From positions 124,001-188,000 of the forward strand of contig CAJNDT010005866.1 in assembly GCA_905221615.1 (NCBI GenBank): a stretch of DNA of 64,000 nucleotides, given 5' to 3'. The notes under the pieces were generated by a model that made no database searches, was not told where the DNA came from, and saw nothing but the letters and a program-made list of their open reading frames with translations. The stretch comes from Symbiodinium sp. CCMP2592. Its lineage: Eukaryota; Sar; Dinophyceae; Suessiales; Symbiodiniaceae. The first letter of the stretch is position 1, and every line of letters begins with the position of its first letter. Below, piece by piece: positions 28,098 through 63,450 of the stretch. A program made the position numbers and the translations under genes.

Positions 28098-28146
28098 ATG
28101 GCTTCGGCGTCCAAGCCTGCGACAAACATCGAGGAGATATTGGAGA
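28098..28146 (+). CDS. Locus A exon 1 (probable start exon)
   Basis: [17 protein letters not shown]. The partner at 51052 reads MAQKKPPSNIEAQMKDER, sharing the ATG context, KP and NIE. The 3' boundary is uncertain; GAGA|GCCCCG (GC donor) would join exon 30267 in phase. Confidence 0.5.
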
Positions 28147-31100
28147 GCCCCGGCCCCGAACTCAAACCTAAACCCAAGAATGCTGAACATCTCAGGGGAG
28201 GAAGCCGTCAATGTCCTGAACTTTGAAATGTAAGCCGTAGCGTGAAAAGGCTCCAGCCGAAGAGTGCAATGCATCTTGAAGCTTGCTCTGTCTCGTCCTA
28301 AACCCCTGAATGCCCAAACGTTCAGGTCTTCAGGTCGTTTTTCTCTGACTCATTGCGTTTGAGTGAGAAAACACGCAGAACCCGAGGATCGCTACAAGAG
28401 GTTTGAAGGCTTCTAGGCCTCGGAGTCGGAGGAAGGGTGCCATGATTTTCCAATATCAAAGAGAACTAAAGCCACTGAAACCGCAAGACGCAGCAGCGTA
28501 GAAACCCGAAGCCAAAACAGCTAGCCGCTGCGCTTTGGAGGCCCTAAACCCTGAACCTTTAGGCCGAAAGCCTAAACCCTCAACCTTCAACCCTGAACCC
28601 ATTTGCATTGGCACTCGAGGCTCCGACCGAGGCCCAGGGAGCGTCTCGTCAGAACGGTGAGGGAGGGTAAAGCCTCCTGGTATACGGGGACTGCCCTGTC
28701 CTGCCCTGCCCTACCCAAAACTGAGGCGACTGTACGAGCAAAACGTTGGTTTACGCTTCGAGCAGCCCTTACAGGGCGCGAGCGGCAGGCTGTTTGTTCG
28801 AAACCTTTGCTTTTCGTCGAGCGACCCGACACCAATCCATCTCTGTGCAATGTGGTCGTTTATGTATCGAACTGCGAAAAGAAGCAGAGAGCAAGAAAGC
28901 CCCCCTTGAGGGGGGTTTGGGGGTGAACCCTAAACCCTAATTGAGAACAGCTGCGGTGGGGCACGCAAGCGCGCGATAAGTGGGCGCACACCCAGTTCTA
29001 AAGAAGCGCACGCACCGCGTGCATACTGTCTACACACCTGCAACCCCAAACCCTAAACGCTCAACCCTAAAGCCTCAACCCCAAACCCTCAACCCTAAGC
29101 CCCCATCCCTAAACTGCCGAGAGCGCGGCTGACTGCGTGGGTGTTCGAGGCTTCGACCGAGGCCCCGGCCCGAGCGTCTCGACCACACGGGGGACGGAAA
29201 TGACTCGGCTACGCCTCACACAACACGGACGTCAGTCCGTTATAACGAGGACCCCAATACTTGCCCTGCCCAGCCCTGCTGCCTTGCCCTGCCCTGCCTT
29301 GTTCACACTTCGAGCAGCCCTACAGGGCGTGAGGGCCAACAGGCCGCGAGGACCCACAACCCGGCAACAATCCATGTCAGCTCTGCTTTCTTGACAAACA
29401 GAGTCGTTTCTGTGTCGAGCTGCGAAAAGAAGCATTGAGCAAGAAAGCTGCCCTTCAGGGGGGTTTAGGGGTGGAACCTAAACCTTACTTGAGAATGCTT
29501 AGGGTGGTTGGGCGGGACTAGATGCTGACGCAAGCGCGCGATATGTGTGCGCGCCCCTATCCCTAAAGGAAAAGGCGCACCCGCCGCGCGCATACTGTTA
29601 CACACCTTAAACCCTAGAGCCGCAACCCTAAACTTCGGCCCTAAACCCTCAACCCTGAACCCTAAAGCTTAGAGCCGACAGTCGAAAGTCTCGAGCCGCA
29701 GGAGTTCCTTTGGAACATCCATACGGCGCTTGCCGCAGCCGAAGGTGGCTCATGGTTGGCACCCGACAGTTTTGGCTTAAGGTCTTTAGGGTGGCATTTT
29801 CGTTGAGAAATTGTTTCACAGCTCTGCCACATCCGAGCCACTAGACCATAAAGCCTCAGCGCGAGCGACTAAACAGTCTACACCCGTTCCACTATAACAA
29901 AATTCCCTTAAGGCTTGGGAAGAACCACTTTAAAGTAAATAAGCTTTGGAACCGTTATCAGACGCGAGAAGTCGCCTAACGAGGCCTTCTCGAACGATGG
30001 GGGAAGGCCTGGGTCTCACTGCCAAAGCCAAGGCCCCCACGTGTGAGAGTTTCTGAAACTTGGGGTCCCCCATGTTCTGATATCGAGACCCTAAACCCAA
30101 AACCCTGAAGGGTCCCTATTGCTTGGTGTTCTAAATTATTTCCCCTACCTTCAAAACGTGAACTTTGACAAGCCTGCATGTATCCCCTAGTTGAGGGTCC
30201 CGAGGTGAAAAAAGTCCCACAGAGCCCGATGACAAAAGAGACACACGATTTTGGATCCAATGCCAGGTCCGATTGAGTTGGCGAACTTAAAGGATCATTA
30301 CCTCAAGCACCACGGCCACAAGCGGCTTGGCCGATAAAATCGAGCTCGGAGTTTCGCTGTTTGCCCTCTACGCTGAATGCAAATTCGGGGTAAACGTCGC
30401 CGTGGTCTGCCGACCAGTGTCGTATCTCCGACGGCCTGAAAAGAGAGAAGCGAGAGTGGTCATTTAAGAGTCACGGCAGTCTTAAACTTGGGTTTATCTC
30501 GCTGATGCTGTTGGTGTTCACTGTGTTGTTGAGTGACTTGATGCAGAGCAGTTTTATCCTCCAAGGCATTGGCTGGAACCGTTCTTCTTCCAGCAGTGTT
30601 GTTTTCCTACAGCTGCCCAACACAAACTCTTATTATACAGTAGAGTCAGTAGAGTGTGTCTAAACTATGTTAGGCTTACCATTGATCATTGTCAGCTGGC
30701 AAAAACGTTGTAGACGCCCAGTAGCATTCACATCGTCGCCCTGATCATTACCATCGTCACCATCATCATCAGCATCATCATCATCATCAACGTCATCATG
30801 ATCATCACCATCGGTATCGTCGTTATCATTATCACCCTTATCGTCATCGTCAGCGTTGTCATCATCACCATTGTCATCATCATCACCATGATCGCCAGCA
30901 TCATCATCATCATCATCAGCAGCAGCATGGCCATCACCATCACCCTCACCATCATCTGCATCAAGATAAGCATAAACATCTCCTGTGTAACATACACATG
31001 TAAGCCGAGGGTTCAAGCCGAACCTCATATCCACGAGCCCTAAAACTTGAGTGCTGAAACCTAAAAATAAAGGCTCTAAACCCGAAGCCACTGAACCCCC

Positions 31101-34100
31101 CCAATCCCTACATAAAACCCAAGGTGCAACATTGAGCGGTTCCTTGTGGTCGGTGAGGGAGGCCTTGGCGCCACTCTCAGGAGGCCACTTGACGTCCGTG
31201 GGAGCTGTTCTCGGGTGTAAGGAGGCTTCTCGGGCTTTGGTGTTCAGGACCTGGTTTTTTCGGGTGTCTATGGCTTCTGGCATTGTGCGAATGTGTTGGC
31301 TCAAGTGCCAACTAGTTGAAGCCCTGAAGGCACCGAACAAACCAGTGTGTGAGCAGTCCTCAGCCGAGACCCGGTATTTGCGGATTGGGGTCTAGGGTAT
31401 CCTATCGAGCGATGAGAGTTTAGGAAGCAGGCGTCACGGGTTAGACCCAAGAAGCTGAAAAGGATCCCTCACATTGTCAAAATCTCCGTGGAGTCCGGCA
31501 CCCCGGTCGTGCAAGCCACGCAGCCAGCAGGCGAGAGGAGATACGGGTTCAGTCGGAGCAAGTGTTGAGATCTCCTGCATGTGCCTGTACACCGTGTGCA
31601 CGTGAGTATCCATCTTTTATATACCTCATATATATATATATATATACGTATACACATATATACACACACATAATACATAGACGGACAAAACAAACACGAG
31701 ATCAATAGGTGTATATATGTATATATGTATGTATATATATATATATATGTATATACGCGTTATGTCGCGCCCTGCTTGATGTGCCCCACCCAAGACTATG
31801 CATAAGAGTTTCACTTGGGATTCATAGTAGCAGAAGGCAGCCCTTCACAGCCAGCGGAGCGGATTCGCGTCCCCAGGTTCTTTTGGCTCTCGGCCCTTAG
31901 CGAAAGGATCCACTTCCTGATGCCGTCTTGACTATTGCGAAAGGGACTGCAGAAGGAGGGAAGCGAAAGGGACACACACACACACAAACATCAACACGTA
32001 AATCAACAAAAAATTACATAGAGACATGTAAGTATTACATAAATAGAAGCACGTACACAGATACATGAGTACATAAAGACATAAATGCAGACGTATGTCA
32101 ACGTATACACACATAAATAGATAAACACATAACTGCAGAACTTGATTAATCACACCATACACGCATAAATTCACAAACACGTTACATAAACACAAGTACC
32201 AAATGCAAACAAGTCTGGAGCCACGGTTCAGGGTTGAGGCATCTTATACACATACATACATACAGACACACATACATGCAAGCTTTTGTATATGTATATG
32301 CCTATGTCTTATGTATATGTCTATGTATATGAATTTACTGGTTATTTGCCCAGTACCATTTATTTATTTGTTTGTTTATATGTATGTGTCTGTATCTATA
32401 CACACCCACTATGTATATGTAGACAAACAGATACATGAGCATTTAAACAAATCTACAAATAGATATGATATGTACATATATATATATATACACATGTATA
32501 TATATGTATATCTATATATGTATATATATATATATATACGCATGTATAATCAAGGAAAAATAGAAACATGTACGAAATATATGTATGTATATACACATAT
32601 ATGTATATATATACATGCATCTGTACATACATGTTATATGGTCTCAGACCTCCGGGATATGCCGGTTCGGGGCTCGTAGAGGGGGTTGCCACTGACAGTA
32701 CCCGAAGTCCTAAACTCTCACATCCTTCAATTGCGAGAGTTAGCCCCTCCCTCGCAGACATCGATCGAGCGCGGCTCATCGAAGAGGACATATGCAGAAA
32801 CCGGGAGGGGAGATTCGGGTTGTTTCACGGGGGGTTTGGGGGCTTGATGGGTTTTGGCAGGTGCATATGGGTTGAAGGTTTGGTGGGCTGTAGTTTGTTG
32901 CTTCTGTGAAGTTCTTTCATGGCTGAGGAGTGGCTTAGCGAAGTTTAGCCTCTTCAGTTGTAATTACATGGCTTTGAGCGGTCGAGTGTCCGGGGTTTGG
33001 CATTTGCACAGAGTCTTGGCTCTGCGGTTATGCTCTAAAGCTCGGCGGAGGTGGTAAGGTGTGGATGTCAGGGTTCATTTCCGCTTTCAGGTCTGTGCTT
33101 GGTGGTAAGGAACGCCAAGCCTTCGCTCCAAGAAGTTGTCAAACATTCGGCAAGCCGTGAACCCTGCATATTTGCAGGGATGCAAGATTTACAAAGCTCT
33201 CTGGGTTCGTCGCTTCCAGCTTCCTGCAGTTGTTTGACACTCAGCTTCAATCCGCACATCCCAGAGCCCAATGCCACAAGGACAAGAAGTATCGGCGTGA
33301 GATTGCCACGCGAAACGCTGCGAAGGCCAGCTGAGACAAGCAGAAGTGCTTCCAATTCCCCCCCCCCCCCCCCCCCCCCCCCCAAAAGCCAAGCCCCGGG
33401 TCCTACCCCATACACCCCAAACTTAGCCCAAAATCCTAAATCCTCATTCCCAAACCTTCAACCCAAAGCCCTCAACCCAAAACCCCGAACCCCAAGCCCC
33501 AAACCCTAAAGCAAAAACCAGGCCGCTGCCGCCGGGACCTCCAAGGCAAAGGCCACTGCCTCAGTTCGGTTCTCTGCTTAAACGTTGGGTATAGGCCTCG
33601 TTTTGCTAAACTGCCTCAGGCGAAGGCTAGATTCTATAAGGGTTATTGTAAGGATAAGCATAGGGGTCATTATAAGGGGCATTATATCCCGAGTCGTTGA
33701 CTTGAGTAGTGCAGGATTCTATGTGTCTCTGTAGAGGTAGGGCTTCGACCCGGTCCCTCCTCCTCCCGGTCTGAGCTGCGCTGCATTGAAATGTACGCGC
33801 TGGTAGCTGAAGTAGCATAAAATCTGCGATGGCCGGTGTTAGAATTAGCTTACCACTAAGCTGTGGCAGCCGACGTCGGGCCAGAGCATAAAGAAACAAC
33901 AGATTCACCGCAGACTCGCAAAGGGGTACCTCGATAGGCAGACAGGACAGGCACGGCTCTCTGCCGACAGAGATCTCGGTGAACTGAAAAGAGACGGAGT
34001 TCAAGTAGCTTGCTAGGCGCAAGCAGCACATACCAAACATCTGCATGTAAATGCTTCGTCGGGCCTTCTTCCGATTTGGGGGAGCTTCTTGCATGAGCTG

Positions 34101-37100
34101 CCTGGAGCTCCTTTCTTGCCGCAGAGCTCTGAAGACCAAGTCCTTCTTAGGCGCCGGGCCTGGCGGGGCCCACCGAAACTCTGAACCCTCTTTGCCCCAA
34201 ATTCCCGAAGTACCTGCTTCATTTCCAATGAGGCAGCACCGCCTTCGAAGGCGGCACCACCTCCTGCCGAGGCCGGCGAAAAGGTTGTGGGTTGGGCGTT
34301 GGGTGGGTGGGCGGGGCGGGTTTGAGGTTTAGGGGCGGATATAGATCAACAGAGATACGAACAATAAGCCAGGACTTTGGGCCCGCGGTGGCCGTCAACC
34401 CTTTCAACACGTGGGCTTGCTGCCTTGACTCAGCTGGGAGGGGCGGCCAGAGCTGTGGAACGGGTGAGAGAACCGTCCCGTTGCCATGACCCGCCGCACC
34501 TCGAATCAGCGCGAATGTGTGCCTGGAAAAATTCGTCGTGGGAGGAGTTGCAGCCTTCAGGGTTACCGGGAACCGCGGCGACCCAAACATCTTCAGAACC
34601 CTGGGCGGCGGCATTGTCCTCCTTCGTCATCATGGCTTCAGTGGGAAACCTACCCAGGCTCTTCTAGCTCCACATACATAGGGTTGTAAAAGGATGAGAT
34701 CCCACTTCTTACGGGCCAGATAGTTTTTGAGGTCCTGATCTTTTTGAACTGAGTCGAACCGCCTTCCGGTGCAGAAGCCGTGGACCCCGTAAACACTCTA
34801 AAGCCTAAGCCCCCAAACCCTTACCCCTAAAGCCCTAAACCCCCCTGAATCCTGACCTTAAGCCCTAAACCCTAAACTGGAGCCTGCGATTGCCAGCTGC
34901 GAGCGTGCCGAGTTGTCAGCGAGGCTGCTGGCTCCGTAGCTCGCGCCCGCGAAGGAGCCCCAGCACCGGCTCAGGTGCTGGCGCATGCGACAGGCATGCT
35001 GGAACAAGAGAACAAGATGACCCCAAACCTCCAGCCTCTGCAAGGCCGCTAGGCTTAGCAGTTGTGATTTCGGCTGCGAAGCGCTGACTTTCAGCCCCGG
35101 CTGCAATTCTGCGCTACCCGTCTTAAAGAAATGTAAATGCAAACCCTAAACCCGACAAAGGTCGTAGATTGGGTGGGCGGCTAGGAGCGTTGAACTTAGG
35201 CGTTCACAACAACACACGTCTCGCGTGGTGGTGTGCACGGAGCATCGACAAACCCCTAAACCCTACCCCTAAACCCTACCCCTAAACCCCAAACCCTAAA
35301 CCCGTAGACCCTAGACCCTCAACCCCTAAACCCTAAACCTTAAGCCCCTAAACCCTAAATTTGCACCCTAAAGCCCTAAACCCCAATGGCGAAGTCCTAA
35401 ACACTGAAGCCTTCATAAATCTCGTGGATCCCTGTCTTCCTCGAGTGCAGGGCAAGCGGCCCGCCGAGAGCGAGGCAAACGCAGAGAACAAGAAGCCAAG
35501 GCAAAAGGGGGGGTTCGAGTCAATGGAAAAAACAGGGTTATGTTGGGTTTAACAGTCTCTTGTTGGTGCGGTTATATGGCTTGTGTGAGGGGGTTGCCCC
35601 CAAACCCTAAACCTGGGGTTTGGAGGGGACAGGCTTAGACACAGGTTTCGAGGTCTCGTTGTTGGTGGAGAGCGGCCATCCCGAAGGGTAGGCAAGGCTT
35701 CCCATAACACCCGACCCCGGTTGGAAACCCCACACAACGGCAATCCTAGTCTTAGCGTCACTCTAACTACCTTCTACAAGAGACCCAATCTCCCCAACAC
35801 CGAACTAGAACCCCGGTAAAACACCCACTGAACGCTGAACCCAAACCACTTACACCCTGCAAAGCCACAACCCCAAGCTCCATCAATCCCTCACCCTTCA
35901 ACCCCAAACAGAAGACGGCAAAACCCACAACTCAAACTTGAGAACCATAAACGGCACTCGAACTTGACGACATCCCGCGCCCAATGTTTAAATACACACA
36001 GAGCCGAAGTCTTGTGTGCTCATGATGATTTATGGTTCGTAGTGTTGGCTGTACGAGAAGTTTTCGGGTTTGCACAGTGATTGAGGTTTGGAGGTTAGGT
36101 GTTCTCAGCGGAGGGAGTTGCGGGTTTACCTGGAGGAATGATGCGGAGGTAGAGACTCTGGCGAAGATGTTGATCCAGGCCCACGGGAGCTTGGGCAGTA
36201 CTCTTAAACATTTTCGATCGCGGCCCTGAACCTTGCATCCTGAACCCTAAACCTGTTCTGATTGCGGCAAGCTTGTTACTTCTCTTGCACTCTGTCTTTC
36301 GAAGTGCTAAGGTAGGCCTTGGTTTCCCATTTTGTGGGAGGGTAATCGGGGTTCTATGAGATGTTTTTGTTTTGGAAAGGTTTTGCAAAGGCTCGAATAT
36401 AAGGGCTTGAATACTTGCTAACATTATTCTGGAGGTTTCGTTGTTTTAGATACAGTACAATATATGCCAACATACCATTCTGATCATTACGGCCCTTGTG
36501 TTATAACGGTTTGCGAAGGGCTCTTTAAGCTGTGGACGGCCTGGGGGTGGGCTGCATTTCTGAGGCGGAAGCCCCACAAACCTCAAACCCAGGGTATTTT
36601 AACGTTAAGCACAACTACCACGAAGAATCTAAACAAATTAGTCAACAAATAAGTTGATGCATATCATATATATATATATATATGTATATATATGTGTATA
36701 TTCATTCCTGGACATGTGAAGACCATCTCTGGACCGGGAGTGCTGTGCTTTGTTGGTTGTGGTCTGTTTCTTGAGAATTGCTCTGGAAAGAAGCCGCGGC
36801 AATGAGTTGTTGGGTTGCCGGTGTGAGAGTCAACGCTAGTTTCCGGTTCTGGCGTTTACGTGCCTCTAGAACTCTAGGGTTTCAGCCAGACCCCTTGCCA
36901 GGGTGTGGTGAGAGTCTTGCAGAACCGTGCCAAGACGAGCAAGGGAGCCTGCGCCTTAGCGATGTGATGGTCGTCATTGGTGGTATGCCAAGAAGGGCGA
37001 GTTGTATAGACCCCGCGGCTCAGGGGATCAGATCGGGTGCCGAGCCTTTGGAGAGCAGACGATGGACTACTACTGCTGTGATGGTTACACCTACTGTCTA

Positions 37101-39641
37101 TCTCATGAACCAGTACACTCGCTAACGACGACGACTACTACTCCTGCTGCCAGCGCCAGTGCCAGTGCCAGTGCCAGTGCCAGTGCCAGTGCCAGTGCCA
37201 GTGCTGGCGCGAGTGCTAGTGCTGGTGCTAGTGCTAGTGCTAGTGCTAGTGCTACTGCTGCTAGTGCTAGTGCTAGTGTTAGTGCTAGTGCTACTAGTAC
37301 TGGTGCTACTAGTGCTATTAGTGCTACTTGTGCTATTAGTGCTACTAGTGCTCGTGCCAGTGCCAGTGCCAGTGCTAGTGCTAGTGCTAGTGCTGCTGCT
37401 ATTGCTAGTGCTACTGCTAGTGCTACTGCTAGTGCTAGTGCTAGTGGTACTGCTAGTGCTAAAGCTACTGCTACTGCTAGTGCTACTGCTAGTGCTACTG
37501 CTAGTGCTACTGCCACTGCTGTGCTATTGCTAGTGCTACTGCTCGTGCTGCTAGTGCTAGTGAGTGCTAGTGCTGGTGCTGCCAATTCCAGTGTCAGTGC
37601 CAGTGCCAGTGGCTAGTGCTACTGCTACTGCTAGTGCTACCGCTAGTGCTAGTGCTAGTGCTAGTGCTACTGTTAGCGTTAGCGCTAGTGCTAGTGCTAT
37701 TAGTGCTACTAGTGCTACTAGTGCTAGTGCTAGTGCTCGTGCCAGTGCCAGTGCTAGTGCTAATGCTAGTGCTACTGCTAGTGCTAGTGCTAGTGCTGCT
37801 GCTATTGCTAGTGCTACTGCTAGTGCTACTGCTAGTGCTAGTGCTAGTGGTACTGCTAGTGCTAAAGCTACTGCTACTGCTAGTGCTACTGCTACTGCTG
37901 TGCTATTGCTAGTGCTACTGCTCGTGCTACTAGTGCTAGTGAGTGCAAGTGCTGGTGCTGCCAGTGCCAGTGCCAGTGCCAGTGCCAGTGCTAGTGCTAG
38001 TGCTATTGCTAGGGCTAGGGCTAGGGCTAGTGCTAGTGCTAGTGCTAGTGCTAGCTAGTGCTAGTGCAAGTGCTAGTGCTGCTGCTGCTACCGCTACCGC
38101 TAGCGCTACCGCTACCGCTACCGCTACCGCTACTACTAGGACTAGTGGTACTACAAGTAGCACGACAGTACCTCGTGTGGCTACTGGTACTTCTGTCCAG
38201 TACTTCAGCTACTTACTAGCACCACCACTTCTACCACAGCCAGTAAATCACAAAGAATTGTGTGGTGTGGATGCTAGTTTTGCTGCTGGTATCGGTGGGA
38301 AGGAAAGTAACCCTGCAAAAGACATGACTGTTGGTGCTTTTGTCTAAATTGAGTTCACACCAACTGCAAAGACGCTCTCAGCCCCCACAGCCCGGCAGCA
38401 TCCTTGTCGTTGCCAAGGCCCTTCCCCTTGCCGAGCTCGAGCACGAGTTCAAGGACGAACCTCCTGCTCGTTGGACTCGCAATACGGTGACTCATGGTAC
38501 TGTTTGTAATATGTGTCAGGGTAACGATAGTGCTACCGCCACAAGGCCACAACGACAATGCTGCAAACAATAGGTCTATAAATGCCTGGAGCAACTTCGC
38601 ACAGAAGGTGCCGCATCAAGCTGGTAAATGCACATTGGCATCCACACACACACATACACACATATTATATATATACACACACATACATATGTATATATAT
38701 ATATACATATATATATATACACACATACATACATACATACATGCATACATACATACATACATATGCATATATATATATATATGTATGTACACACATGTAC
38801 ATACACATTGGCTGCGCCCGAATCGGACACAATGCTCAAAGCAGAAAGCGCATCATATGGTACCCCCCGGAATCCGCACCTTCAGTCTGCATATGTCTAG
38901 TATGTCGGTATAGTCCTGATCTACACACTTATCTCGCATCTGCGCATGCTGCAGAAGACAGACGCACATGCGGCACGAGCGTGTGCAGTCAATTAAACAA
39001 GAAGAATCACCCTATTCCTCGAGACAGTCAGTCACAGACATCCAAAATACCAAAGTCCATATGCCAAGCAATGCGCATGTTCCTCGCGATAGCCCCAAGA
39101 TAAAACACAGCCAAAAATGCCAACCTTTCAGAAAACTGAAATGAGAGTCTTTTCGAGACAGTCTCAACAATTTCAATAATACCAAGACCAATAGGCCAAA
39201 AATTTGAGCACATTCTTCCAGACAGTCCGAACAACACCAAAAATACCAGAGCCTCCCAGAGATCTGAAATGTGCATATTTCTCGAGACAGTCCCCAAACA
39301 ACCAAGAATACCGAAACCCATTCGCCAAAACATGAGCATGTTCTTCGAGACCGTACAACACAGCAAAGATGACAAGCTATCGGGACGGTCTCGAGAAATT
39401 GCCTTTGGAATAGCGCTAAATCTTGTTTTTTGGGACTGTCTCGAGGAATATGCTCATTTCGTGGCCTATGGGCTTTGGTATGTTTGTGCTTGTGGGGGCT
39501 GTCTCGAGAAATGGCCTTTGGAATAGCTCTGAATCTTTTTTGCTTTTTCGGTATTGTCTCGAGGAATATGCTTAGTTCGTGGCCTCTGGGCTTTGGGATA
39601 CGTAGGGTGGGTGGGTGGGGGGGCCTAGCAGCGCTGCACTA

Positions 39642-42447: not shown

Positions 42448-42961
42448 GACAGCCACCGCAGCTGGTTTTTCTGAGGGCTTCGCTTTCGCATTCTATCGGA
42501 GCATGCATCCACCGCATGCGCCCTAAAAACCCAAAGTGCCATGTCCAAAGAACCTGAACCCCTATGCCCCCCCAAACGCTGGCCTGACAAGAACCACAAT
42601 GCAAGCCTGCCCCCTTGAACCCGAGACACCAAATCTTTCAATTCCAAGCCCCAGACCCTCAACCCTGGAACTAAGTCTTTTCGGGCCCCGACCAGCCGTG
42701 CCTATGAGCCAAGAGTGCGGTCCCTGAGCATCAGTAGAAGCTTCTTTCAACAAGCACCGTGTCCAAGCAAGAAGCGTCCTTAGTTTCCCATCCACCTCCC
42801 TGTCCGCGCCAGCTCCAACTAGCGAAGAAAGCGACCACACCCCCAACGGCGGCAAAGACTGCTCTTCGGCTGCGCTGGTAGTTTGATGTTTGGGGCTCTC
42901 GCCACAGACCCGTACAGCCTGGTGGGCTTTAACTCCGACATGGGGGGCTACATGTCCAAGG
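42448..42961. other. Intron or intergenic DNA, no exon identified
   Basis: CCCTGAA/CCCCAAA-type telomere-like words. No duplicated block or strong frame recognised. Confidence 0.4.
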
Positions 42962-43815: not shown

Positions 43816-44309
43816 CAGCTTCGCCCCTGTGCAAGAAGCCTCGAGTCTCGCAGGCTGCGCCAGAGGAGGCCCCTATGGCAGCTCGAAATAAGCGAGCAGG
43901 CGAGCTTGGGATTTCGCCACCTTGTAGGAGGCATAGGCCCAATGTTAGAACTGCTAAACCCTAAACCCTAAACTGCTGCAGACGGCAAAGAGCTTTCAAC
44001 AAAAGCACCCTAAAATGCTAAGCTCGCAACTTCCCCGAACCATTGAAGCCTTCCTGGCTACGTGTCTACGCACGGCCGTGTCCGTGTCTGCTTGGCAAGT
44101 CGGGCTGGGTGTCCGGGTTCGGGTGTGGGTTTCAGCGGAGTCAAAGGTTAATGAATAGCTTTGAGGCTTTCTGGCTGAGCTCTTCCGATCAGGTAATTTG
44201 GTAAAACCGTAAAAGGTGTGAACCTGCATCTACCCCTCCGCGACCGAAAGCTGAACATCTCTGTTTTTCGGACGCAAGGCCTAGTTCCGAGGCTGAAAAT
44301 ACCACCGCA

Positions 44310-47603: not shown

Positions 47604-47682
47604 TTACTACAACCTGAGCCTGGCCCCCCACCTCCCAAACGCTTCCTGTAGGCTTGGAACCACTGAAACCCCAACCCTACAT

Positions 47683-51051: not shown

Positions 51052-51104
51052 ATGGCTCAGAAAAAGCCACCCTCGAACATCGAGGCCCAGATGAAGGATG
51101 AAAG
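51052..51104 (+). CDS. Locus B exon 1 (probable start exon)
   Basis: ATG in a CGCCATGG context; MAQKKPPSNIEAQMKDE ending AG|GTTGGG. The frame is open upstream too (QQEPAQLADA), so the start could be earlier. Confidence 0.5.
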
Positions 51105-54100: not shown

Positions 54101-57100
54101 GATTTTCAGACTCTCGAAGCTTCTCTGCTCCCTCGTAAAACAAAGTCGGTCTCAAGCCCTAAGCCGTCTTGGAACTCTGCACCCTTAGCCCTTATAGGAC
54201 CCCAAACCTGACATTGAATGCAGACCTGGATCAAGCTGGGCTCATCGAAGAGGACGATCTTGCGACATCAGCTCCGGTTTTAGGGACCGTAGTCCCAGAT
54301 GATCGGGTGGGGCTTTGCAGCAAATGAACAAAGCCTGGGGAATTTAAATGTAGCGAATTTGAAAGTAGCGGAGCCACATACTCCCACAAGAACCAGCCAA
54401 TCAATGAACGCAAACTCGATGCACCCTGCACCATCAGCCTCAATAGTGCCCACTGCCAAAACCCTAAATCACCTCACCTCGCTGCACCTTGAGCCGGAAG
54501 CTCATCAACGAACCAAATCACTCCAACCAGGAATCCGAACTCCTCCCGTGTCTCACAAACACAAACCTCCTTGATTGAATGTAGGACCAGGTGGTGCAGT
54601 ACAGTTGTTTTGTGAGGGGAATTTTCGACAGGTTTTGAAGGCTTGTTTACAAGGTCCTGGCACCATTATAGTCTTAAGTTGACGTGACACGAGTCACCTC
54701 GTTCATAAGGCAGTACTTAGTACGGTAAGTGCGGGACGAGACCCCCGCTCGATGCGCGAACTCCCAACGCCTCCAAATTGTAAGAGCCCGCAAGCTCAAA
54801 AGCGATGAAGGACCCCGGAACTGCCCCAGAACCCTAAACCCGAAGAGCCCACCTAAGCCCCAACCGTTCTAAAGCCTTCTAAAGACCACGTCATGTCAAC
54901 TATTGTAGTTTTTGCTTTTGTCGAGGTATAATGACATTTTGCAAGCAAGGTCGGAGGTTGGAACTTTTAGGCTTCATGCCCGCATGGCCGTGCAAGGATA
55001 AAAGATACAGAAAGGAGTTGGCCTCGCGAAATGCTGCGAAGGTGGGTTTCAGGGGAGCTACTGGTAATGTAGGAACCTGATTAAGAAACCCTGGGCCTAT
55101 AACGCCAACATAGTAGGCTTCATATGAGGAACCCGAATAAAGGCCCAAGGTTTCTCAATCAGGTTCCTACATTAGGCACGGTCGTAAGGATGTTGAAGTT
55201 CTTGAGTTTGGAGGGTTCGGTTTCAGTCGTAGACAGCATCCAGCAAGCGGGGTCCTTCACACCATCAGCATGTAGGATCTTCTAAGGGAGTTTGGTTTAG
55301 GGTTCAGGGTTTGAGGGTTTAGGGTTTGATGCTTGTCTGGGAGATTGTTAAAAATGCGTTGCTTAGGCACAGATTCTTCTTGCTCAGTGGCTCAGTCGGT
55401 AATTCGGGCGCTGCCATCGTTTGAGATGCAGCGCTACACTGCAAAAGCCAGGCACCCCCGAAGCGTGAAGCTGTGATAAACTGGCTCAGGTGCAGGAATG
55501 CCACGGGGGTAAGGCATTGCCTGCGTACGTCAGACAGCAAGCCTGACATCCCAGCTAACCCTGCTGGAAGTCTACCCAAACCCTCTCGACGCTACACGCC
55601 CAAAAACCCCAACGTAACGCAACGTCGCAACCATGAGCCCCGTGTCCTATGTCCCACTCCAATGCCAGGCGGCAGCGATGGGCACCTCTAAGGCCGCGAC
55701 AGGGTTGGCGGGTAGCAGAGGCTGCACGGTGTGAGAAGCAATGTCAATCTCATTCCGTGGGATGTCAACTAGCACAAGACCGGTATACAGGACCTTTAGG
55801 CTTTTTGGAAGAGGCTGCTTCGTCGCGCAGCTCAGTTGCAGGCGGCACCTGCATCGAAAGCAGCTCCGGCTGCGGCGCCGCCGGCCGCTCCCGCCACGAC
55901 TGCAGCGCCAGCACCAGCGACAGCAGAGCCTGCAGTGGCAGAGGCGGAAGCAAGTCCCCTCCCCTAGCATCTTACTGAGAGGCTAGGTTCTTGTGAAGTG
56001 GGTTGTGGGGATGATCCATCAACCCTAGCTTCTGCCTTGCGTCACGAATCCTGTCCTGAGCCTTCAAGATGGAGCTCATGGGCTATGAGTAGCAGCTATT
56101 CGGTACCGTTTCGAGGGTGCAGGGTTTGGAGACAGAAAGCCAAGACCAACCAGTTTATCCAACACCAGCAAGCTCAGGATCTGGCTGCCCCGACTTTAGC
56201 AGCGAAGTTTTCAACATGGCAGACCCTGAAAGAAATCAAATCAGCGCCCGATCCTCGCTGAACCCCGAAATCACAGCCCCTACCAAAAAAAGACCAACGG
56301 AAGAACACGACGTAAGGTACATGATTGAGCAGAAGCTTAAAGTCATAGTACGACAAGTCTACACTCAAAGATGAACTTCCAGCCACCAAGAGCCTTCTAG
56401 CCTTCAGTATCTTCTTCCATCTTGAACTTTCTTTCTATGTTCAAGCTCCTGCTCTGGCTTCCCCACACCCATGCCTACCGCCCATGCGTGGCCCTGAAGC
56501 GCAGGGCAAGCGCCCAGCAGAGGGTGGCGAAAACAACGCCGAGAAGAAGCCTAGGTTGGGCCCCGTAGAAGCTTCAGGGCTTCTGGGCCCTAAAATCCTG
56601 ACCCCAAACCCCTTAACCCTAGACCCTAAACCCCTGGGTTCATGGGTCATGAGAATAAGTAGGCTAAGAACCTGCGCCCGAAAGATCCCAAACCCGTAAA
56701 GCCCAGGATCTAGTGTTGGGCGGTTTGGGTTTGCGGCATGGGAGTTGGGGCTTTGAGGCTTGGGAGTTTGGCTTGAGGATCTTTGGGGGTTAAGGCTCTT
56801 TGCTAGAAGGCTCAGGGTCTTGGGTCTTGGATCTACGTCGTTCAGGGTTTAGTTTAGTCAGGCTTTCGTTTGAGGATCTGTTTGGAGGGTTTGGGGTTTG
56901 GGGATCTAGGGGGTGTCAGGTTCAGGATTGGGGGTTAGGGCGCGTTCGCTTCGTGTACGGCGGCCGAAGCAGTAGCAGCTGTTTTGGTTGGATTCTTGTG
57001 CAGAGTTCGACACAGTCCTGTGTTAGGCTGCGACTGTGTGTTGTGAAGACTTGATATCTGGCTTTCGAGGTTGTTCGTGTGTCTTCGTCTGTGTAGATGG

Positions 57101-58891
57101 TCTCTTGTGTTCTTGTGGCAGGTGCGGTTCACTCGCTCTCTCGCTTGCGGTTTCTGTATACAAGGGCTTCGTGGGAGATGATTCTCACCTAGATTTATCT
57201 GTTAGTCTAACTGTACAAATGCATGGTTGAATCAAGAAGATAGTACAGCTCGACACATGTACCTAACCAGGAAGATGATCTAGGACAACTACCGTAACCC
57301 TTAACCTTGGAGCCTAACATCCTGCTACTGTACCAGGAACGAACAGGAGACTGCAATGCTTGGAAGGATGCTCATGCAGGCTGTCCGGTGGGGGTCAATC
57401 GTGGTGTTTCAGGGTTTACTGGAAACTCGGGTCAAGCGACTGATGCACTCGAGTGCCTGCAAGGATCCCTTGCTTAGTAAGCCCATTAAGGTTGCAAGGA
57501 TCTTCTTTTCTGAGTGGCTTTGGGGGTTGTTTGGTTGGGCACCGTCCCTCTCACCAGAATTTGGGCCTGTTATGGGCAACACGTATTCGCGGAGCGGACG
57601 CAGCTTGTCTCGGTGCCCGAGTGTATGTTTGCAATCCTCCCGAGCAGCGGTTAATGTGTGTGCGGCGCAGCACCGAAATCATCTAATGAGAGTAATGCCA
57701 GCATGATTTAATAATGTACTTTGGCGGCAGCAACCACTATGCTGCCGTCGGAGGGATACGAGGTTGCCACACGAGTACTTCGGCAGGTGAGAAGTGCTTC
57801 CGAAATTCAGCTTTCTCGCAGAGCCTTTTTGTTCGAAACGTCTGACTGCAAGCATTTAGTTGACTGTACGGCCCTCTCAAGACATGTTCGGAGGCAGATT
57901 GGAGATTTTATGCCTTAGACGAGCCAGCCGAGCCTTAGGAAGACACGACACCTCGTACATCCTTCTGAGTGCATTCTTCTGAGTGTTTGGAAATAGAGTA
58001 CGTCAGCTGTAAGAATTTAAGGGCAATCTCGCTTCTCTCCAGTACTACTCCACCGCCAGACTGTGTCCTAACCGCTGCCCGAAACCTTAGGCCGTAAGCC
58101 GTGCTCGAGCATCTTAACCCTCAGCCGGAGCCTCCTGCACGATGGTAGCCAGCAGAACCTCCCTGCAAAAGCCAGCTCATTCAGACTTTCTATGCTCCAA
58201 AGTGAGCCTGACCATGAAAAAGCGCGCAGGTGAGGCCCCCCCCAACGCACCAACTCCCAAAGCTTCCCTCTACTTCAGGGGCCGCCGAGAACGCCTGAAG
58301 AGCTGAAACCGAAGGCAAAGCCCGAAAAGCATCAAGCCCGGACCTCAAACCCTAAAGCCCCTAAAGCAAGCCATCTCTTCGACAGCTCTTGGTTCTGAAA
58401 CTCGGAGCTTCGATCCCAGGGCGTGGTGAGAGTGCTGCAGAATCGCGCCAAGAATAACCAGGGGGCCGTGCGCTCAAAGGGCTTTCGAAGTTTGATGCTT
58501 GCTTGTGAGCTTGAACTGAGGGTTGAAATGGCTCAGGATTTTGGTTTGGGATTGAGGGGGTCTCAAGATTCAGGCATTCATGAGCTTTGTTTGTATACCG
58601 TTAGTCCCATTACCCAAAGCCAATCAACTGGACTGATAGTCTATGCGTAGGTCTTGGTAGGTGCTGGTGGGTCAGAACTGTGAGAATTTCGAGACTCAGG
58701 AATCGGAGGTACTTGCTGGTAGCAGGAACAGTCCTTTGCATCATTCTGGTTACACCCTGACCCCATGACCACCTCGCCCCGACCCATCGACCACCAGCAC
58801 CACCCGCACCACCGCCGCAGCTGCCGCGTCGTCGAGGTCGTTGTCGTCGCGGGAGTCACAGTCGGCAAGAGTAGTAGTAGTAGTCGTCGTC

Positions 58892-58936
<45 letters not shown>

Positions 58937-61900
58937 AACAAAATCACGAGAATATAAATGGCAGTAGTGGCGGCGGTCGCTCGTCGTCATTGTCGTCTTC
59001 GCTGTAGATGTTGCCGCAGTATCACTAGAGTCACTAGACCATAGACCATAAGCACAAGCTCTCGAGATGATACAAACAACAACCGTGCCCGCGACAACAA
59101 GCAATCATAATAGAACTTGCTAGTCAGACAGATTCCTGCGTATGGAATTCATGCGGAAGTCGCAAGAGTAGCAAACTCTAACCTTAAATGCAATGTGATT
59201 GTTCGTGAGCCTCGCAACCTGAACCCTAAACCCTAAACCCATTCCGAAGCGAGGCCCTTCCATTGGCTGATCTGGAGACTGAGTTCAAGGCCGGTTTATA
59301 TGTAGTTATGTAGGACTCTTAAACACGGTTATATGTATTGAGCAGAATTCTGGGCATATGTCGCTCTGATCATGCTTGGGTGTGCAGCGCACCATCCATT
59401 CTTTTCAGAGTGCCTGCCTCAACGCACATGTCGTCTTTATCAACACTGTTCGTCTTGTTTTCGATGCGATTCTATACAATTTTGAGGGGTTCCTTAGTAT
59501 ATTTACAGTATAATGGGCCTCAAGTCATTAAGGCCCCTGTGTTGCCACGACCATCGATGCTTCAAGCCCAAACCCAGAAGCCAAGAGAAGGGGCCCGCAG
59601 CTCGGTCCAGGCATGTACCATGGGGGCCTTGATCATTATAGGGTTTGGGTGTAGGGTTTCGGGTTTAGGACCTACACTGCTTTGGGAGAGGCCCATATTA
59701 CAGTTATAGTATCATGGGCCCCTGAAGTAGGCGAGAAACCTCAGGGCCTGAACCTTCGAGAGTGAGTTCGATCTTCTTAAAGCTTGCGTTTCCCTAGAAC
59801 TGCAAGCAGCTCACTGAACTTCAAACGAGCTGTATCATCTCGATGAGGACTGATGGCTAGACTTAGGCGTCCCTGGCACTGGGTCTAGATCATTGGTTTG
59901 GGGTTTAGGGTTCAGGTTTAGTTTTATGTGCCTGTGATTCTGAGCTACTGTGCAGGAGCTGTGGAAAGTGCCCTTCAACGTGAAGGAGGCCCGTCCTTCG
60001 TGTGGTCTTACTCTCGCCTTTAAATATTAAGGCCCCGTATTCGTTTACTTTTGGGGCTTCAACAATTACCTATTCATTTGCTTCGGGGGTCCTTATTACA
60101 GTTATAGTAACTTATAGTATAATGGACCCCCAAACCCTATTCTACTTATTTATTAAGGCCCCTATATCATAGTACCCTTACAGATCTGTCATGGTAACCA
60201 GCCCTCTTCTCAGCATTCAGGCCCCATGTTCGTCTAGTTTGGGATTCAAGATCACCGGCCTGCCCGTCTGGATCTCCTCATGCAAAGCCCCCGGATATGG
60301 GGGTTTCCGAAAGTAGGGGACCCGACCCTAATCTAGTACCCTAAATAGTAGGATCCTTAATAAGGATCCCAAAATAAGGTACCCTAATTGTTGGAAACTC
60401 CCATATGCTGAGGGGCTCATCCATCGATCATAGTAGAAACAATAATACCTCTTTGTTTTCTTTGTTGTTATGAATATACTTTTAACACTTATACACTATT
60501 CATCATGATCATTATTACTTTTCGTATCATTAGCACTTAGGGCTTATTTTCACCCCAACAAAGCCTAAAGGTCTCACCTCAGGAAGTCATACTTCAGAAC
60601 CCGAAAATGGGTTTAGGGTTTAGGGTGTCGGGTAATTAGGGTTTAGCCTTCGAGCGATTTGACAGGAGTGGCTCAGGAAGCTGCATTGCTATTGGACTCA
60701 TAATATAGGGCCGGAATACGTTGTTTGTTATGATGATATTGCTCTGGTTCCGCATGATAACTATAGAACAATATACGCCCCCCAGCCCTATTCTAATTAT
60801 TACGAACCTGGAGTTCTCGAGTTCTTCGTGTCTTACTTCATCTGAACTGCTTGGCGTTTTCGGGGGTGCAGCGCCCTGGAGCCTTTGTTTGCCCTTGACG
60901 TTTAGGGTTTAGGGCAATCTGTAGGTCCTGAGAAGAAGAGGAAGATCCACCAACGAACGTCATATCAAAATCTGAAAGGTCCGAGAATCGGGGAATTGGG
61001 AGATGTTCTTCCTTAAGGTTCCTAAATATCAGTATACGAGTTCGTTGCACCATGTACACGTTCGCTGTGGACAGGTCCGACTCGACAAGCGTATAGACCG
61101 GTTCCGGTTCCCTGCAGCTTGCTTCGCTCAAGCTCAAACTAGCTTCGCAGGAAAACCCTTCATACAGCCAAATGCCTGAACACCAACACGTGAGCTGCCG
61201 GATCGAGGTCGAGAGGGAACATCCGAAACGCAGTGCGCTGGGATCAGCCCCCTCCCAGGAAGGGGTCCTTCCTGTGCACGGATGCACTGCAATTAACGAA
61301 AATGCAGTGCGAAGAACCTATTTACCTGCACTGTCCTTTCGACTCGCACCTCTGCCGCCACCTCAGAACTTGGACGGTGGATGGCGAGCAAGGATGGATC
61401 TATTAGGAATCGATTATTCTGAAAACCAATTCCTCCCCGTGTCTATTCGCAAGGTACGGCCGGACGTGCACGTGTGTTTCGACATGACCCTCGACGGCCC
61501 GCACAAACTTCTGTACGATACGCTTTATCCGGAGAAATCATTTTGGAGCTCCTGGCGCAAAACCGAGTTTTTTGGGCTGCGTGCAGTCCATGCTCCGCTG
61601 ACCGTTGGGCAACATGGAGCAGCAACACATCGTGTCCCACGAGCAACCTCCGGTGGTTTTGGACACTTCAAAGGCCGAGACGGAGCCGGGCCTCTCGGAC
61701 GTCTGAGTTCTTTGAGTCAAATAGCATCTGCAGACCAAAAAGCGGTTCGGCCTATGTGTCGGCACGACATCAAAAACCGCGCACAGTATGCCACAGCGGC
61801 GGATTTCGAGTGCCGCACATCGCTCCGACGGGACGAAGCCCTTACTACCTGCAAAATATGACGTGAGGATCATGCTCAAGCTTGCTCAAGACGGTCATGC

Positions 61901-63450
61901 TCGCAATGAGCAAACGCCACCCAGGTCGCAATGCATTTGGGACGACTCTTCTGCAGTTAAAAAGCAAGCAGCAGCTATTCCACCCCTATATGTTAGGTTT
62001 CAGCTAGTCCGGTTTTTCTGGAAAAGGCCTCTTCCCTGGACCTTAATTAAGCCCGGGTTCAGAAGAAAAGCCCTAAGCCCTATGTAAAGCTTGAACCCTA
62101 CAACCTACAGTGGAAGCCAGAATGTTGGAATGCGGTTAATGGCCCGCGCCGGTAAATAGGCCCACATTCTAAGATTCGTTTTCGTGGCAAACATGTATCC
62201 CGCGCCTTCGGAAGATTCTGAGCGGGTATACGGTTACATTCCAACTTTCATTTGAAAGGGCCATATCCTTTAGAGCCCACCGGCCCGAGACCAGCATTCC
62301 CGCACCCAGTGTTTTTTTGCGCGTGTGGGGGGACCCGCACCCCCCCCACCAAGGTCGACGTGTAATTGGAACTGCGCAGTTTGTGCTTTGAATCCCGTTG
62401 AACCGACCATTCCTTTCACTGTTCTCCCCCCATTTTCGTGCTGTCGCTTGGCGCTCCAACTCCTGCAGTTTTTGCTATGCCGACCAATCCTTTCACATGT
62501 TTTGCTGCTCTCTTTCATTTTCGTGCATTGACCCTTGCTTTCCTTTCTATTGAGCTCCAACTCTCCGGGCAGGTTTTGGTGTGCTTTCACAGGTTTTGCT
62601 GCTCTCTTCATTTTCGTGCGTTTGCCTTCGCTTGTCTTTTTGATTGTGCAACTCATTTAAAGGTTGCTCAATTTTTTTTGTCGACCAGTCCTTCAAGCTC
62701 CGTGAAGTTTTTGGTGTGCCGACCATTCTTCAAAGCAAAGAGTGTTCTGACTCGGGAAGGGTTGGAATGCAAATTCCAAGTTCAATCTTGAACCTGAAGG
62801 TTGGAATGGAAGCCAAGGTTGGGATTCATGAAGCTTGGAATTTTTGAAACTTGGAATGTGTCAAATCTTCCCCCTAACATGCAGGAAATTTGGGTTTGCA
62901 TATTCCAAGATTTGGGCTTTCACCATAAACCGTGAAGCCTAAACCCTAGAGCTTAAACCGGTCAAGATCAAGAGGCCGGGGAGACTGACGCCCTGAGCTT
63001 CCTGCGGAAATGGCCTGCGAAGGCTTGGGTGTTTTGAAGTGCATGGGTCCTTGGTTTGAGAGGGTTTAGGTTTTACGGTTTAACCTGTCGGGCTTGGGCT
63101 TCTTTGCGGTTGCGGATTTTAGCGGTCTCGGGGGTTGAGATCCCACAGTACATGATTCAACACCCTTGCAAGGCGGCTTGATTACGAAGATCTACGAAGT
63201 GTTCCAATACTCCATGGGGCTTGTTATGCTATGCTCGAGGTAGGACTATTTAGGAGTCTTTAAGTATAGTGGGTTTGAAGAATCCCTCTAAGGGTGTCTA
63301 CACTAGTATGGTGGAATATACCCCCCCGAACACCCTGTTCTGACTCATACGGCCCCTACACTGCAACTCTTGAGGATGCCTCAGGTGACCTTTCCCCTTT
63401 AGCAATCGAAGCGCTGCACAGGTGGAGCTGCAGAAGGACAACGATTCCTG
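51052..63450 (+). CDS. Locus B: tandem paralogue of locus A, LOTUS-like, at least 12 micro-exons
   Basis: The twelve coding blocks of locus A recur here in the same order, about 22-23 kb downstream, over at least 12.4 kb; the 3' end is probably outside the window. Intron sequences are not alignable between A and B, while the exons keep length, phase and residues, with many silent changes. This contrast argues that both copies have been under protein-level constraint since an old duplication. Domain content as for locus A. Donors are GT more often than in A (51104, 53084, 55041, 56554). The join between the first and second blocks is out of phase with the boundaries chosen, so an exon is missing or a boundary is wrong. 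Whether both copies are expressed cannot be told. Confidence 0.6.
51629..51729. repeat. 21-bp higher-order telomere-like repeat
   Basis: The unit TTTAGGGTTTAGGG plus TTTAGAG repeats nearly five times without error: every third heptamer has GGG changed to GAG. Confidence 0.97.
51730..52487. other. Intron 1 of locus B; open stretch of unknown status
   Basis: A + frame at about 51997-52140 reads AVHANSSPEVFREGWKFKSR and then QATIVSIQRPK, and may be an extra exon. Not matched in locus A. Confidence 0.35.
52488..52550 (+). CDS. Locus B exon, LOTUS-like first half
   Basis: 63 nt: VKLTSLKDQWLKFHGHKRFG after a leading Pro. Acceptor CTCCAG|, donor TCG|GCCGAA (GC). Partner of 30267. Confidence 0.6.
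53025..53084 (+). CDS. Locus B exon, GEGG block
   Basis: 60 nt: [20 protein letters not shown]. Acceptor TTTCGAG|, donor AG|GTGGGT. Partner of 31124; one codon longer. Confidence 0.7.
53303..53402. mobile_element. MITE-like element, family M3
   Basis: CGTAGTTGTCAAAATAGGGG start and TAATTTTGACAACCACCC end; core GCTAAATATTAGGTGCCGGA. In an intron of locus B. Confidence 0.95.
54224..54252 (+). CDS. Locus B exon, LIEE block
   Basis: 29 nt: LDQAGLIEE, then GAG|GACGAT (GA donor). Partner of 32758. Confidence 0.55.
54997..55041 (+). CDS. Locus B exon, RYRKE block
   Basis: 45 nt: DKRYRKELASRNAAK between GTGCAAG| and GTGGGT. Partner of 33281. An M9 element begins 24 bp after the donor. Confidence 0.7.
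55065..55174. mobile_element. MITE-like element, family M9
   Basis: Ends TAATGTAGGAACCTGATTAA and TCAATCAGGTTCCTACATTA are inverted repeats; arms extend through GAAACCCTGGG/CCCAAGGTTTC. The outermost TAATGTAGG is shared with the best M1 copies. Confidence 0.95.
55175..56504. other. Intron sequence of locus B, possible unmatched exons
   Basis: An Ala/Pro-rich open stretch at about 55826-55965 (AAPASKAAPAAAPPAAPATT) and QQAQDLAAPTLAAKFSTWQ (about 56165-56220) look coding-like but have no clear partner in locus A. Confidence 0.35.
56505..56554 (+). CDS. Locus B exon, Lys-rich KRPAE block
   Basis: 50 nt: GKRPAEGGENNAEKKPR, from GCGCAG| to CTAG|GTTGGG. Partner of 35451. Confidence 0.75.
57347..57379 (+). 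CDS. Locus B exon, MLMQ block
   Basis: 33 nt: ETAMLGRMLMQ, from GAACAG| to CAG|GCTGTC (GC donor). Partner of 36149. Confidence 0.55.
57721..57918 (+). CDS. Open stretch in locus B intron, unknown
   Basis: The frame PSEGYEVATRVLRQVRSASE and SRRAFLFETSDCKHLVD ends at a TAG. It resembles coding sequence in composition, but no counterpart lies between the matching exons of locus A. Could be an extra exon or a small nested gene. Confidence 0.2.
   Translation: MAAATTMLPSEGYEVATRVLRQVRSASEIQLSRRAFLFETSDCKHLVDCTALSRHVRRQIGDFMP
58420..58464 (+). CDS. Locus B exon, [10 protein letters not shown] block
   Basis: 45 nt: [15 protein letters not shown], from CCCAG| to GGG|GCCGTG (GC). Partner of 36902. 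Confidence 0.7.
58869..58937. repeat. (GTA)n microsatellite
   Basis: TAG/GTA trinucleotides, in an intron of locus B. Confidence 0.95.
59254..59289 (+). CDS. Locus B exon, LOTUS helix block
   Basis: 36 nt: ALPLADLETEFK, from AGCGAG| to AAG|GCCGGT (GC). Partner of 38417. Confidence 0.7.
59467..59538. mobile_element. MITE-like element, family M1 (left end diverged)
   Basis: TTTTGAGGGGTTCCTTAGTA, TACAGTATAATGGGCC and TCATTAAGGCCCC. Confidence 0.85.
59622..59722. mobile_element. MITE-like element, family M1 (with telomere-like words inside)
   Basis: GGGGGCCTTGATCATTATAG start and TTATAGTATCATGGGCCCC. The middle is replaced or invaded by GGTTTGGGTGTAGGGTTTCG-type telomere-like sequence. Confidence 0.75.
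59956..59988 (+). CDS. Locus B exon, LWKVPFNV block
   Basis: 33 nt: [11 protein letters not shown], from TGTGCAG| to GAG|GCCCGT (GC). Partner of 39784. Confidence 0.75.
60022..60168. mobile_element. MITE-like element, family M1 (expanded)
   Basis: A right-end AAATATTAAGGCCCC piece, then a full core GGGGGTCCTTATTACAGTTA, TAGTATAATGGACCCCC and ATTTATTAAGGCCCCTATAT. Probably two overlapping copies. Confidence 0.8.
60295..60406. mobile_element. MITE-like element, family M2 (complete)
   Basis: Ends ATATGGGGGTTTCCGAAAGT and GTTGGAAACTCCCATAT are inverted repeats. Core TAGTACCCTAAATAGTAGGA. Confidence 0.93.
60704..60811. mobile_element. MITE-like element, family M1 (diverged)
   Basis: TATAGGGCCGGAATACG start, ATGATAACTATAGAACAATA core, CCCTATTCTAATTATTACGA end. 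Confidence 0.75.
61172..61861 (+). CDS. 229-codon open frame in locus B intron, uncertain
   Basis: One long + frame includes LLGIDYSENQFLPVSIRKV and RPDVHVCFDMTLDGPHKLLY. A second + frame (61474-61866) and two - strand frames are also open across the same DNA, so the true frame, if any, is unclear. No domain recognised. It occupies the intron equivalent to the one holding the 8-cysteine gene in locus A but is not related to it. Confidence 0.25.
   Translation: MPEHQHVSCRIEVEREHPKRSALGSAPSQEGVLPVHGCTAINENAVRRTYLPALSFRLAPLPPPQNLDGGWRARMDLLGIDYSENQFLPVSIRKVRPDVHVCFDMTLDGPHKLLYDTLYPEKSFWSSWRKTEFFGLRAVHAPLTVGQHGAATHRVPRATSGGFGHFKGRDGAGPLGRLSSLSQIASADQKAVRPMCRHDIKNRAQYATAADFECRTSLRRDEALTTCKI
62395..62740. 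repeat. Diverged tandem repeat, about 90-bp unit
   Basis: ACATGTTTTGCTGCTCTCTT/ACAGGTTTTGCTGCTCTCTT, CATTTTCGTGC, GTGTGCTTTC/GTGTGCCGAC and CTCCAACTC words repeat three or four times. Followed at 62755-62905 by TTGGAAT/ATTCCAA words. Confidence 0.75.
62975..63022 (+). CDS. Locus B exon, GETD-FLRKWP block
   Basis: 48 nt: AGETDALSFLRKWPAK, from CAAGAG| to AAG|GCTTGG (GC). Partner of 41833. Confidence 0.75.
63296..63360. mobile_element. M1 right half (diverged)
   Basis: TAGTATGGTGGAATATACCC, then ACCCTGTTCTGACTCATACG and GCCCC. Ends 61 bp before the last exon of the window. Confidence 0.6.
63422..63450 (+). CDS. Locus B exon, VEL strand block
   Basis: 29 nt: VELQKDNDSW (last codon split), from GCACAG| to TG|GAAGGC (GA donor). 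Partner of 42416. Confidence 0.5.

Follow-up and report, generated by a model that had tools for sequence, protein, structure and literature searches.

A tandem array of intron-rich genes for a probable double-LOTUS-like protein in Symbiodinium sp. CCMP2592

The window analysed here, a stretch of 64,000 nucleotides from the genome of Symbiodinium sp. CCMP2592 (C5004:124001-188000, on a contig of 515,866 bases), contains two copies, A and B, of a gene that large introns divide into about 16 very short exons, and a third copy, C, follows beyond the window end. We consider it likely that these are three ancient head-to-tail and co-oriented dinoflagellate genes, held under purifying selection, which encode a double-LOTUS-like protein, a probable adaptor in RNA, helicase or decay functions.

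Exon structure and selection in three collinear copies

A preliminary description of the window had proposed two tandem, collinear gene copies, each made of twelve short coding blocks. All twelve block pairs of A and B were recovered by translated search, collinear and on the + strand, and represent real exons. The tandem and collinear arrangement was retained, but the number of copies was raised to three, as a search of the genome (1.098 Gb, 5383 contigs) and the fetched flanks placed copy C, with the same exon order as A and B, 2.4 kb beyond the window end. The features as modelled are listed below in window positions; those past the window end are given as window-equivalent and contig positions.

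28098..28133, +, copy A exon 1, start codon context gccATGG, donor GAG/ga
29702..29744, +, A exon 1b, sought from a phase conflict, not in the preliminary description, junction supported by copy C
30267..30321, +, A exon 2, LOTUS-like domain 1
31124..31183, +, A exon 3, LOTUS-like domain 1
31463..31530, +, A exon 3b, not in the preliminary description
32758..32786, +, A exon 4
33281..33325, +, A exon 5
35451..35500, +, A exon 6, with KR(x10)KKPR, resembling by eye a bipartite nuclear localisation signal (NLS)
36136..36178, +, A exon 7, placed by phase and by a length of 43 nt shared by A, B and C
36902..36946, +, A exon 8, LOTUS-like domain 2
38418..38453, +, A exon 9, LOTUS-like domain 2
39784..39816, +, A exon 10, LOTUS-like domain 2
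41833..41880, +, A exon 11, LOTUS-like domain 2
42416..42451, +, A exon 12, last part of LOTUS-like domain 2
43136..43159, +, A exon 13 (APAKPPPK), newly found, with the same length of 24 nt in A, B and C
43854..43880, +, A exon 14 (AAPEEAPMA), tentative, by eye
51052..51084, +, copy B exon 1 (MAQKKPPSNIE)
51580..51622, +, B exon 1b (EFLWCMHSMLVSAG), not in the preliminary description
52488..52542, +, B exon 2
53025..53084, +, B exon 3
53781..53848, +, B exon 3b (IPHVVKLVQESGATFVKAAQSA), not in the preliminary description
54224..54252, +, B exon 4
54997..55041, +, B exon 5
56505..56554, +, B exon 6, bipartite-NLS-like
57337..57379, +, B exon 7, start moved upstream from 57347
58420..58464, +, B exon 8
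59254..59289, +, B exon 9
59956..59988, +, B exon 10
62975..63022, +, B exon 11
63422..63454, +, B exon 12
65229-65894 (C5004:189229-189894), B exons 13-14, past the window end
66422-83417 (C5004:190422-207417), copy C, whole, past the window end

Although all twelve blocks were real, the twelve-exon model was short of two internal exons and, at the 3' end, of one or more. When the blocks were joined unchanged, the reading phase broke between exons 1 and 2 in B, 3 and 4, and 6 and 7 (judged by eye), and the three introns concerned were therefore searched for overlooked exons, with AG acceptors and GT, GC or GA donors imposed and the base after AG left free. Two of them held an exon paired between A and B that scored above all of its own controls. 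Exon 1b (intron 1, three phase options) scored 39, against at most 34 in 36 control regions and at most 24 in the 12 of its own option, and exon 3b (intron 3, one option) scored 59, against 12 controls of which one reached 48 and the others no more than 25. For intron 6 (one option) no paired exon rose above the controls, and a three-copy search of it, run without a control, gave no convincing exon; the conflict there vanishes when exon 7 is taken from an upstream AG|G, giving 43 nt in A, B and C. Exon 7 accordingly begins at 36136 in A and 57337 in B rather than at 36149 and 57347, and exon 9 of A begins at 38418 rather than 38417. Ending exons 3 and 6 earlier, at aligned GC donors, also restored the phase but removed conserved coding sequence (by eye) and was rejected.

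At the 3' end, comparison of the flanks between copies with low-complexity sequence masked gave just weak or repeat-like matches and no shared exon. An acceptor-anchored search returned exon 13 as its top three-way match, with a score of 110 and a runner-up of 77 in the same phase; the scores of 105 and 90 in the other phases came from overlapping or low-complexity stretches. Exon 14 and exon 12 of copy C were chosen by eye. At the 5' end, the same opening sequence, gccATGGCT, stands at an equivalent place in A and B. In copy C, exons 1 and 1b are not separated by an intron and NIE-DFLW reads uninterrupted, which supports the exon 1-1b splice junction of A and B.

Exon lengths were mostly equal between A and B as first described, but phase-fixed boundaries give ten equal pairs of the original twelve rather than eight, the exceptions being exons 1 and 12, which differ by 3 nt each. 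In the full model, the 13 exons of equal length are identical at 411/579 nucleotides (71%), whereas 1000 random placements of B stretches averaged 25% and did not exceed 30%. In exon 3 (31124/53025) the eight silent codon changes counted earlier were found again, but with two conservative changes (L/I and R/K, by eye) rather than one. Exonic sequence makes up 4.3% of A, 5.3% of B and 4.1% of C, in agreement with the earlier estimate of about 4% per locus.

Protein identity over 213–215 aligned codons was 67% for A/B, 60% for A/C and 66% for B/C. The corresponding ratios of nonsynonymous to synonymous differences (pN/pS) were 0.29, 0.37 and 0.33, with bootstrap upper bounds of 0.37, 0.47 and 0.41, and the A/B differences numbered 46, 37 and 111 at codon positions 1, 2 and 3. 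Once joined, the exons run without an internal stop through 226 codons in A, 260 in B (followed by TGA) and 229 in C. A dN/dS near 1 with in-frame stops, named in advance as grounds for refuting the model, was thus not observed, and the joined exons show the purifying selection expected of functional tandem duplicates. Ordered exons, phase and pN/pS together bear out the original view of intron-dominated, protein-constrained gene copies.

Introns and splice signals

The 45 modelled introns have 31 GC, 9 GT and 5 GA donors. All end in AG, as imposed, and the following exon begins with G in 42 of the 45, which was not imposed; this combination of GC, GT and GA donors with AG/G acceptors is that of a dinoflagellate nuclear gene. 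We infer that the copies are transcribed and spliced. The introns average 1010 bases, and each copy spans 15–17 kb with about 15 of them, separating exons of 42–49 nt on average (median 43–44). Removal of these mostly GC-AG introns, with a mean of about 1 kb, would leave a coding sequence of 0.7–0.8 kb.

The dinoflagellate origin guessed at first proved correct. Exact matches to the 21-nt dinoflagellate spliced leader number 429 in the genome (217 forward and 212 reverse), whereas the reversed control has 0 and 0, and the genome is assigned to a dinoflagellate because of these copies and the dinoflagellate-type splice signals. A search of the window that allowed up to 3 mismatches found no relict spliced leader.

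For Symbiodiniaceae, donors are given in the literature as 43.6–58% GC, 23.6–36.6% GT and 17.4–19.8% GA, with an AGG acceptor in 96–97%, and genes as having 15.7–17.2 exons, with exon means of 99–120 bp and intron means of 486–869 bp (PMC9412976, PMC10666404). Other annotations of the family report GC or GA donors at 25–74% and intron means up to 893 bp (PMC11453091, PMC7789003). The genes of Cladocopium, Durusdinium and Symbiodinium natans resemble copies A–C in donor order (GC>GT>GA), AG/G acceptors, exon number and tandem duplication, and differ in the mean exon length of 99–120 nt as against 42–49 nt (PMC9412976, PMC10666404). Exon number and splice signals are therefore ordinary, and the best reading is an intron density 2–3 times the usual in an otherwise normal dinoflagellate intron landscape. 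Tandem duplication and intron richness are already well known in dinoflagellates; related work on dinoflagellate microexons was not met with in the literature searched, judged by titles.

The introns of A and B do not align, as originally stated. With simple and telomere-like repeats masked, the 15 homologous A/B pairs scored a mean of 20.9 bits, compared with 19.8 for 210 non-homologous pairs. Jukes-Cantor synonymous divergence (dS) was 1.64 for A/B, 1.35 for A/C and 1.76 for B/C, which is saturated, so that the unalignable A/B introns need no special explanation. The first intron of copy C (region of window-equivalent 66422-67424) splits exon 1b, 11 nt 3' of the A/B position. It is bordered by a 7-nt direct repeat, not unusual as the maximum of 45 introns (P 0.56). 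Across all intron boundaries direct repeats had a mean length of 3.78, slightly above the 3.32 found after shuffling, and one of 2000 shuffles was as high. Introner-type terminal inverted repeats of at least 8 nt within 30 nt of the ends were present in 0/45 introns, and two of 7 nt were seen. The three-way comparison thus presents a conserved protein, unalignable A/B introns and one shifted position, and because the protein is conserved and one intron position has changed, intron gain and loss may be read exon by exon.

The encoded protein

The joined exons give proteins of 226 (A), 260 (B) and 229 (C) residues as modelled. The predicted order is an N-terminal LOTUS-like winged-helix domain, a charged bipartite-NLS-like linker, another LOTUS-like domain and finally a tail rich in proline and alanine. 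In a Pfam scan made before exons 7, 13 and 14 were completed, OST-HTH (PF12872) was the top match of joined A (18.4 bits, E 0.002) and also matched joined B (12.2 bits); the same scan gave no match to a Tudor, RRM or NYN domain. The earliest, incomplete joins had matched OST-HTH in A (E 0.037) and HTH_27 in B (E 0.17). Taken singly, domain 1 of C matched OST-HTH at 16.3 bits (E 0.0087).

Comparison with solved structures points the same way. A profile of A, B and C searched against the PDB returned chain 8wxs_A as the second of 3 matches (E 1.0), and this chain itself matches OST-HTH at 52 bits in Pfam. Aligned by hhalign with four PDB LOTUS sequences, domain 1 matched at E 1.4e-5 (probability 80%, 53 columns) and domain 2 at E 6.8e-6 (probability 85%, 48 columns), and 0/300 column shuffles reached the score for either domain. 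Against 8wxs alone the scores were 25.0 for domain 1 (E 1.3e-4) and 30.8 for domain 2, while 99 overlapping pieces of four open reading frames (ORFs) of the window, used as controls, scored at most 12.6 and 11.3; the three single LOTUS sequences 8wxs, 3rco and 3s93 scored 12.7–30.8 against the gene domains. A weak match in the same register was also seen between the two domains themselves (E 0.002, probability 13.7%). At the profile level, both resemble LOTUS domains of solved structure along the length of the domain. Both domains are probably LOTUS-like, the fold being proposed from remote homology only.

Several results weigh against this assignment. No Pfam scan, of the incomplete joins or of the single domains, reached the curated gathering cut-off of OST-HTH (23.8 bits), which leaves the protein short of formal family membership, and domain 2 matched at just E 0.055 in B (13.8 bits) and 0.3 in C (11.4 bits). 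Domain 1 alone of A (E 0.03) and B (E 0.15), and the domain 1 consensus (E 0.038), matched MOSC_N without OST-HTH, and domain 2 of A alone matched no Pfam family. The hhalign E-values refer to one comparison each and ignore the many families from which LOTUS was picked, and 3rco and 3s93 singly match weakly (E 0.002–0.07). Searching all six frames of the genome with PF12872 gave no match at E 0.1, the exons being shorter than the domain; in practice, an intron-blind six-frame domain search misses this gene. The gene models are known here from DNA alone; those of A and C are partial at the 3' end, that of C also at its 5' exon, and exon 14 is tentative. In addition, a segment of domain 2 of A, used as a query against the PDB, returned no LOTUS chain.

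If the gene models are right, the domains could instead be two copies of another small winged-helix or alpha/beta type. The unreached cut-off, the MOSC_N and HTH_27 matches at E 0.025–0.2 and the unmatched domain 2 of A would fit such a reading. It is nevertheless unlikely, as two separate stretches match LOTUS over 48–53 columns and each other weakly in the same register, shuffles and control pieces score lower, and the match of domain 1 to 8wxs (E 1.3e-4) was unselected, since 8wxs entered the comparison through domain 2.

The OST-HTH/LOTUS family (PF12872) includes MARF1, Oskar, TDRD5/7 and Tejas/Tapas, and plant and bacterial NYN-LOTUS proteins also belong to it. The two gene domains align with it over 48–53 columns, and the protein differs from the family in its sub-cut-off scores, small size and NLS-like linker. 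LOTUS domains have been described from bacteria, fungi, animals and plants, and some of those in animals bind and stimulate the DEAD-box helicase Vasa (PMC5458760). MARF1 LOTUS domains recruit the CCR4-NOT deadenylase (PMC6168497), and one LOTUS domain of plant DNE1 interacts with RNA G-quadruplexes (PMC9181182). By analogy, the two domains may bind RNA, or an RNA helicase or decay partner, and an adaptor that ties RNA to a helicase or decay complex is the most likely function. The KR(x10)KKPR motif between the domains, recognised by eye, suggests that the adaptor may be nuclear.

The nearest alveolate LOTUS protein found in print is Md1 of Plasmodium falciparum, likened here by its description as a LOTUS/OST-HTH protein (PMC9750867). 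It lies in cytoplasmic foci, where CCR4-NOT parts and DEAD-box helicases were proximity-labelled, and differs in having one LOTUS domain, an OHA domain and an N-terminal extension; its cytoplasmic rather than nuclear site is a further point against the reading preferred here (PMC9750867). The species screened for Md1 included Symbiodinium minutum, and orthologues are reported from Haemosporida and Piroplasma alone (PMC9750867). By description, Caenorhabditis elegans MIP-1 and MIP-2 are also similar, as paralogues with two LOTUS domains each and disordered regions, although these are animal germ-granule proteins, unlike the dinoflagellate gene (PMC8331183). No report of a dinoflagellate LOTUS/OST-HTH protein was found in the literature searched, a scope outside which most subscription papers lay. 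The protein is thus a candidate dinoflagellate LOTUS protein, and this functional label is likely to be new.

Array organization, dispersed relatives and surrounding sequence

A wider proposal is that of a dinoflagellate family of small, perhaps nuclear double-LOTUS proteins, maintained as an old tandem array, possibly in part a polyprotein (B–C), with moving introns. We regard it as possible but doubtful; if true, introns would have been gained and lost within a conserved protein.

A more specific alternative is that B and C, and perhaps the whole array, form one transcription unit for a polyprotein with at least four LOTUS-like domains. The first exon of C starts in phase 1 at an AG/G acceptor, 527 nt past the B stop, with no in-frame ATG between it and the nearest upstream stop, and exon 14 of B has a phase-1 GAG/GC donor-like site before its stop (by eye); polyproteins are moreover known in dinoflagellates (PMC11453091). 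However, A and B share their start context, the frame of B ends at a stop in exon 14, C may equally well have a short 5' exon of its own, and the 7.2-kb gap from A to B has no recognised exons. We therefore consider a polyprotein improbable and treat the copies as three genes.

That any of the copies is a pseudogene or a silent relic is more improbable still. A decayed copy of exon 3 with an in-frame TAG does exist on another contig (C1187:70689-70748), which shows that members of the family can decay; it is closest to B, matching it over 82 nt at 85%, with a nearby 29-nt match to B intron sequence. The three copies themselves have no stops, phase-consistent exons and pN/pS well under 1 in all three pairs.

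A genome search at E up to 10 (55 candidates scored) gave 42 matches, 14 on C5004, 1 on C1187 and 27 weak ones elsewhere, the last at E 2.19 or worse. All but one of the 27 fall on residues 65/66-141 of copy C; these 26 (E 2.19–8.57, 32–34% identity) lie in long open frames on C1943, C4212, C2605 and other contigs. They apparently form one dispersed multi-copy family, and the 27 weak matches were taken for chance. Apart from them and the copies on C5004 and C1187, no relatives were found in the genome, in searches that scored the best candidates and single exons only, so that diverged relatives could escape. No uninterrupted (retroposed) copy was among the candidates scored in two genome searches (16 and 55), and the viral_contigs and genome_contigs collections held no relatives of the gene.

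Chance or repeat-driven similarity of the A and B loci, both rich in shared telomere-like and palindromic repeats, can be set aside, as it was in the preliminary description, given the ordered exons with 71% identity against a null maximum of 30% and their recurrence in copy C, which refutes it.

Interstitial telomere-like repeats occur across the window (for example 48966-49081 and 51626-51729), with 191 TTTAGGG/CCCTAAA heptamers compared with about 8 expected from base composition. A palindromic element of about 105 nt, resembling a miniature inverted-repeat transposable element, is present in five copies, at 13947-14047, 47677-47786 and 53304-53408 in the window and at window-equivalent 69173-69280 and 78734-78837; three of the five sit within introns of copies B and C.

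An intronless ORF of 282 aa (40467-41315, +) lies within the intron between exons 10 and 11 of copy A, on the same strand. By eye it has a hydrophobic signal-like stretch and two Cys-rich repeats; it matched no Pfam family at E 0.01, and no second copy was found in the genome at E 1e-3 (93 candidates scored). Upstream of copy A, a single-exon ORF at 12057-12623 (+) encodes a protein of somatomedin B repeats and includes a tandem repeat of 213 nt, and another at 18777-19973 (+) matches glycosyl hydrolase 16 and, below threshold, somatomedin B. A 709-aa ORF at 22828-24957 (+) contains a 180-nt (60-aa) tandem repeat with 97% matches and appears by eye to be Pro/Gln-rich.

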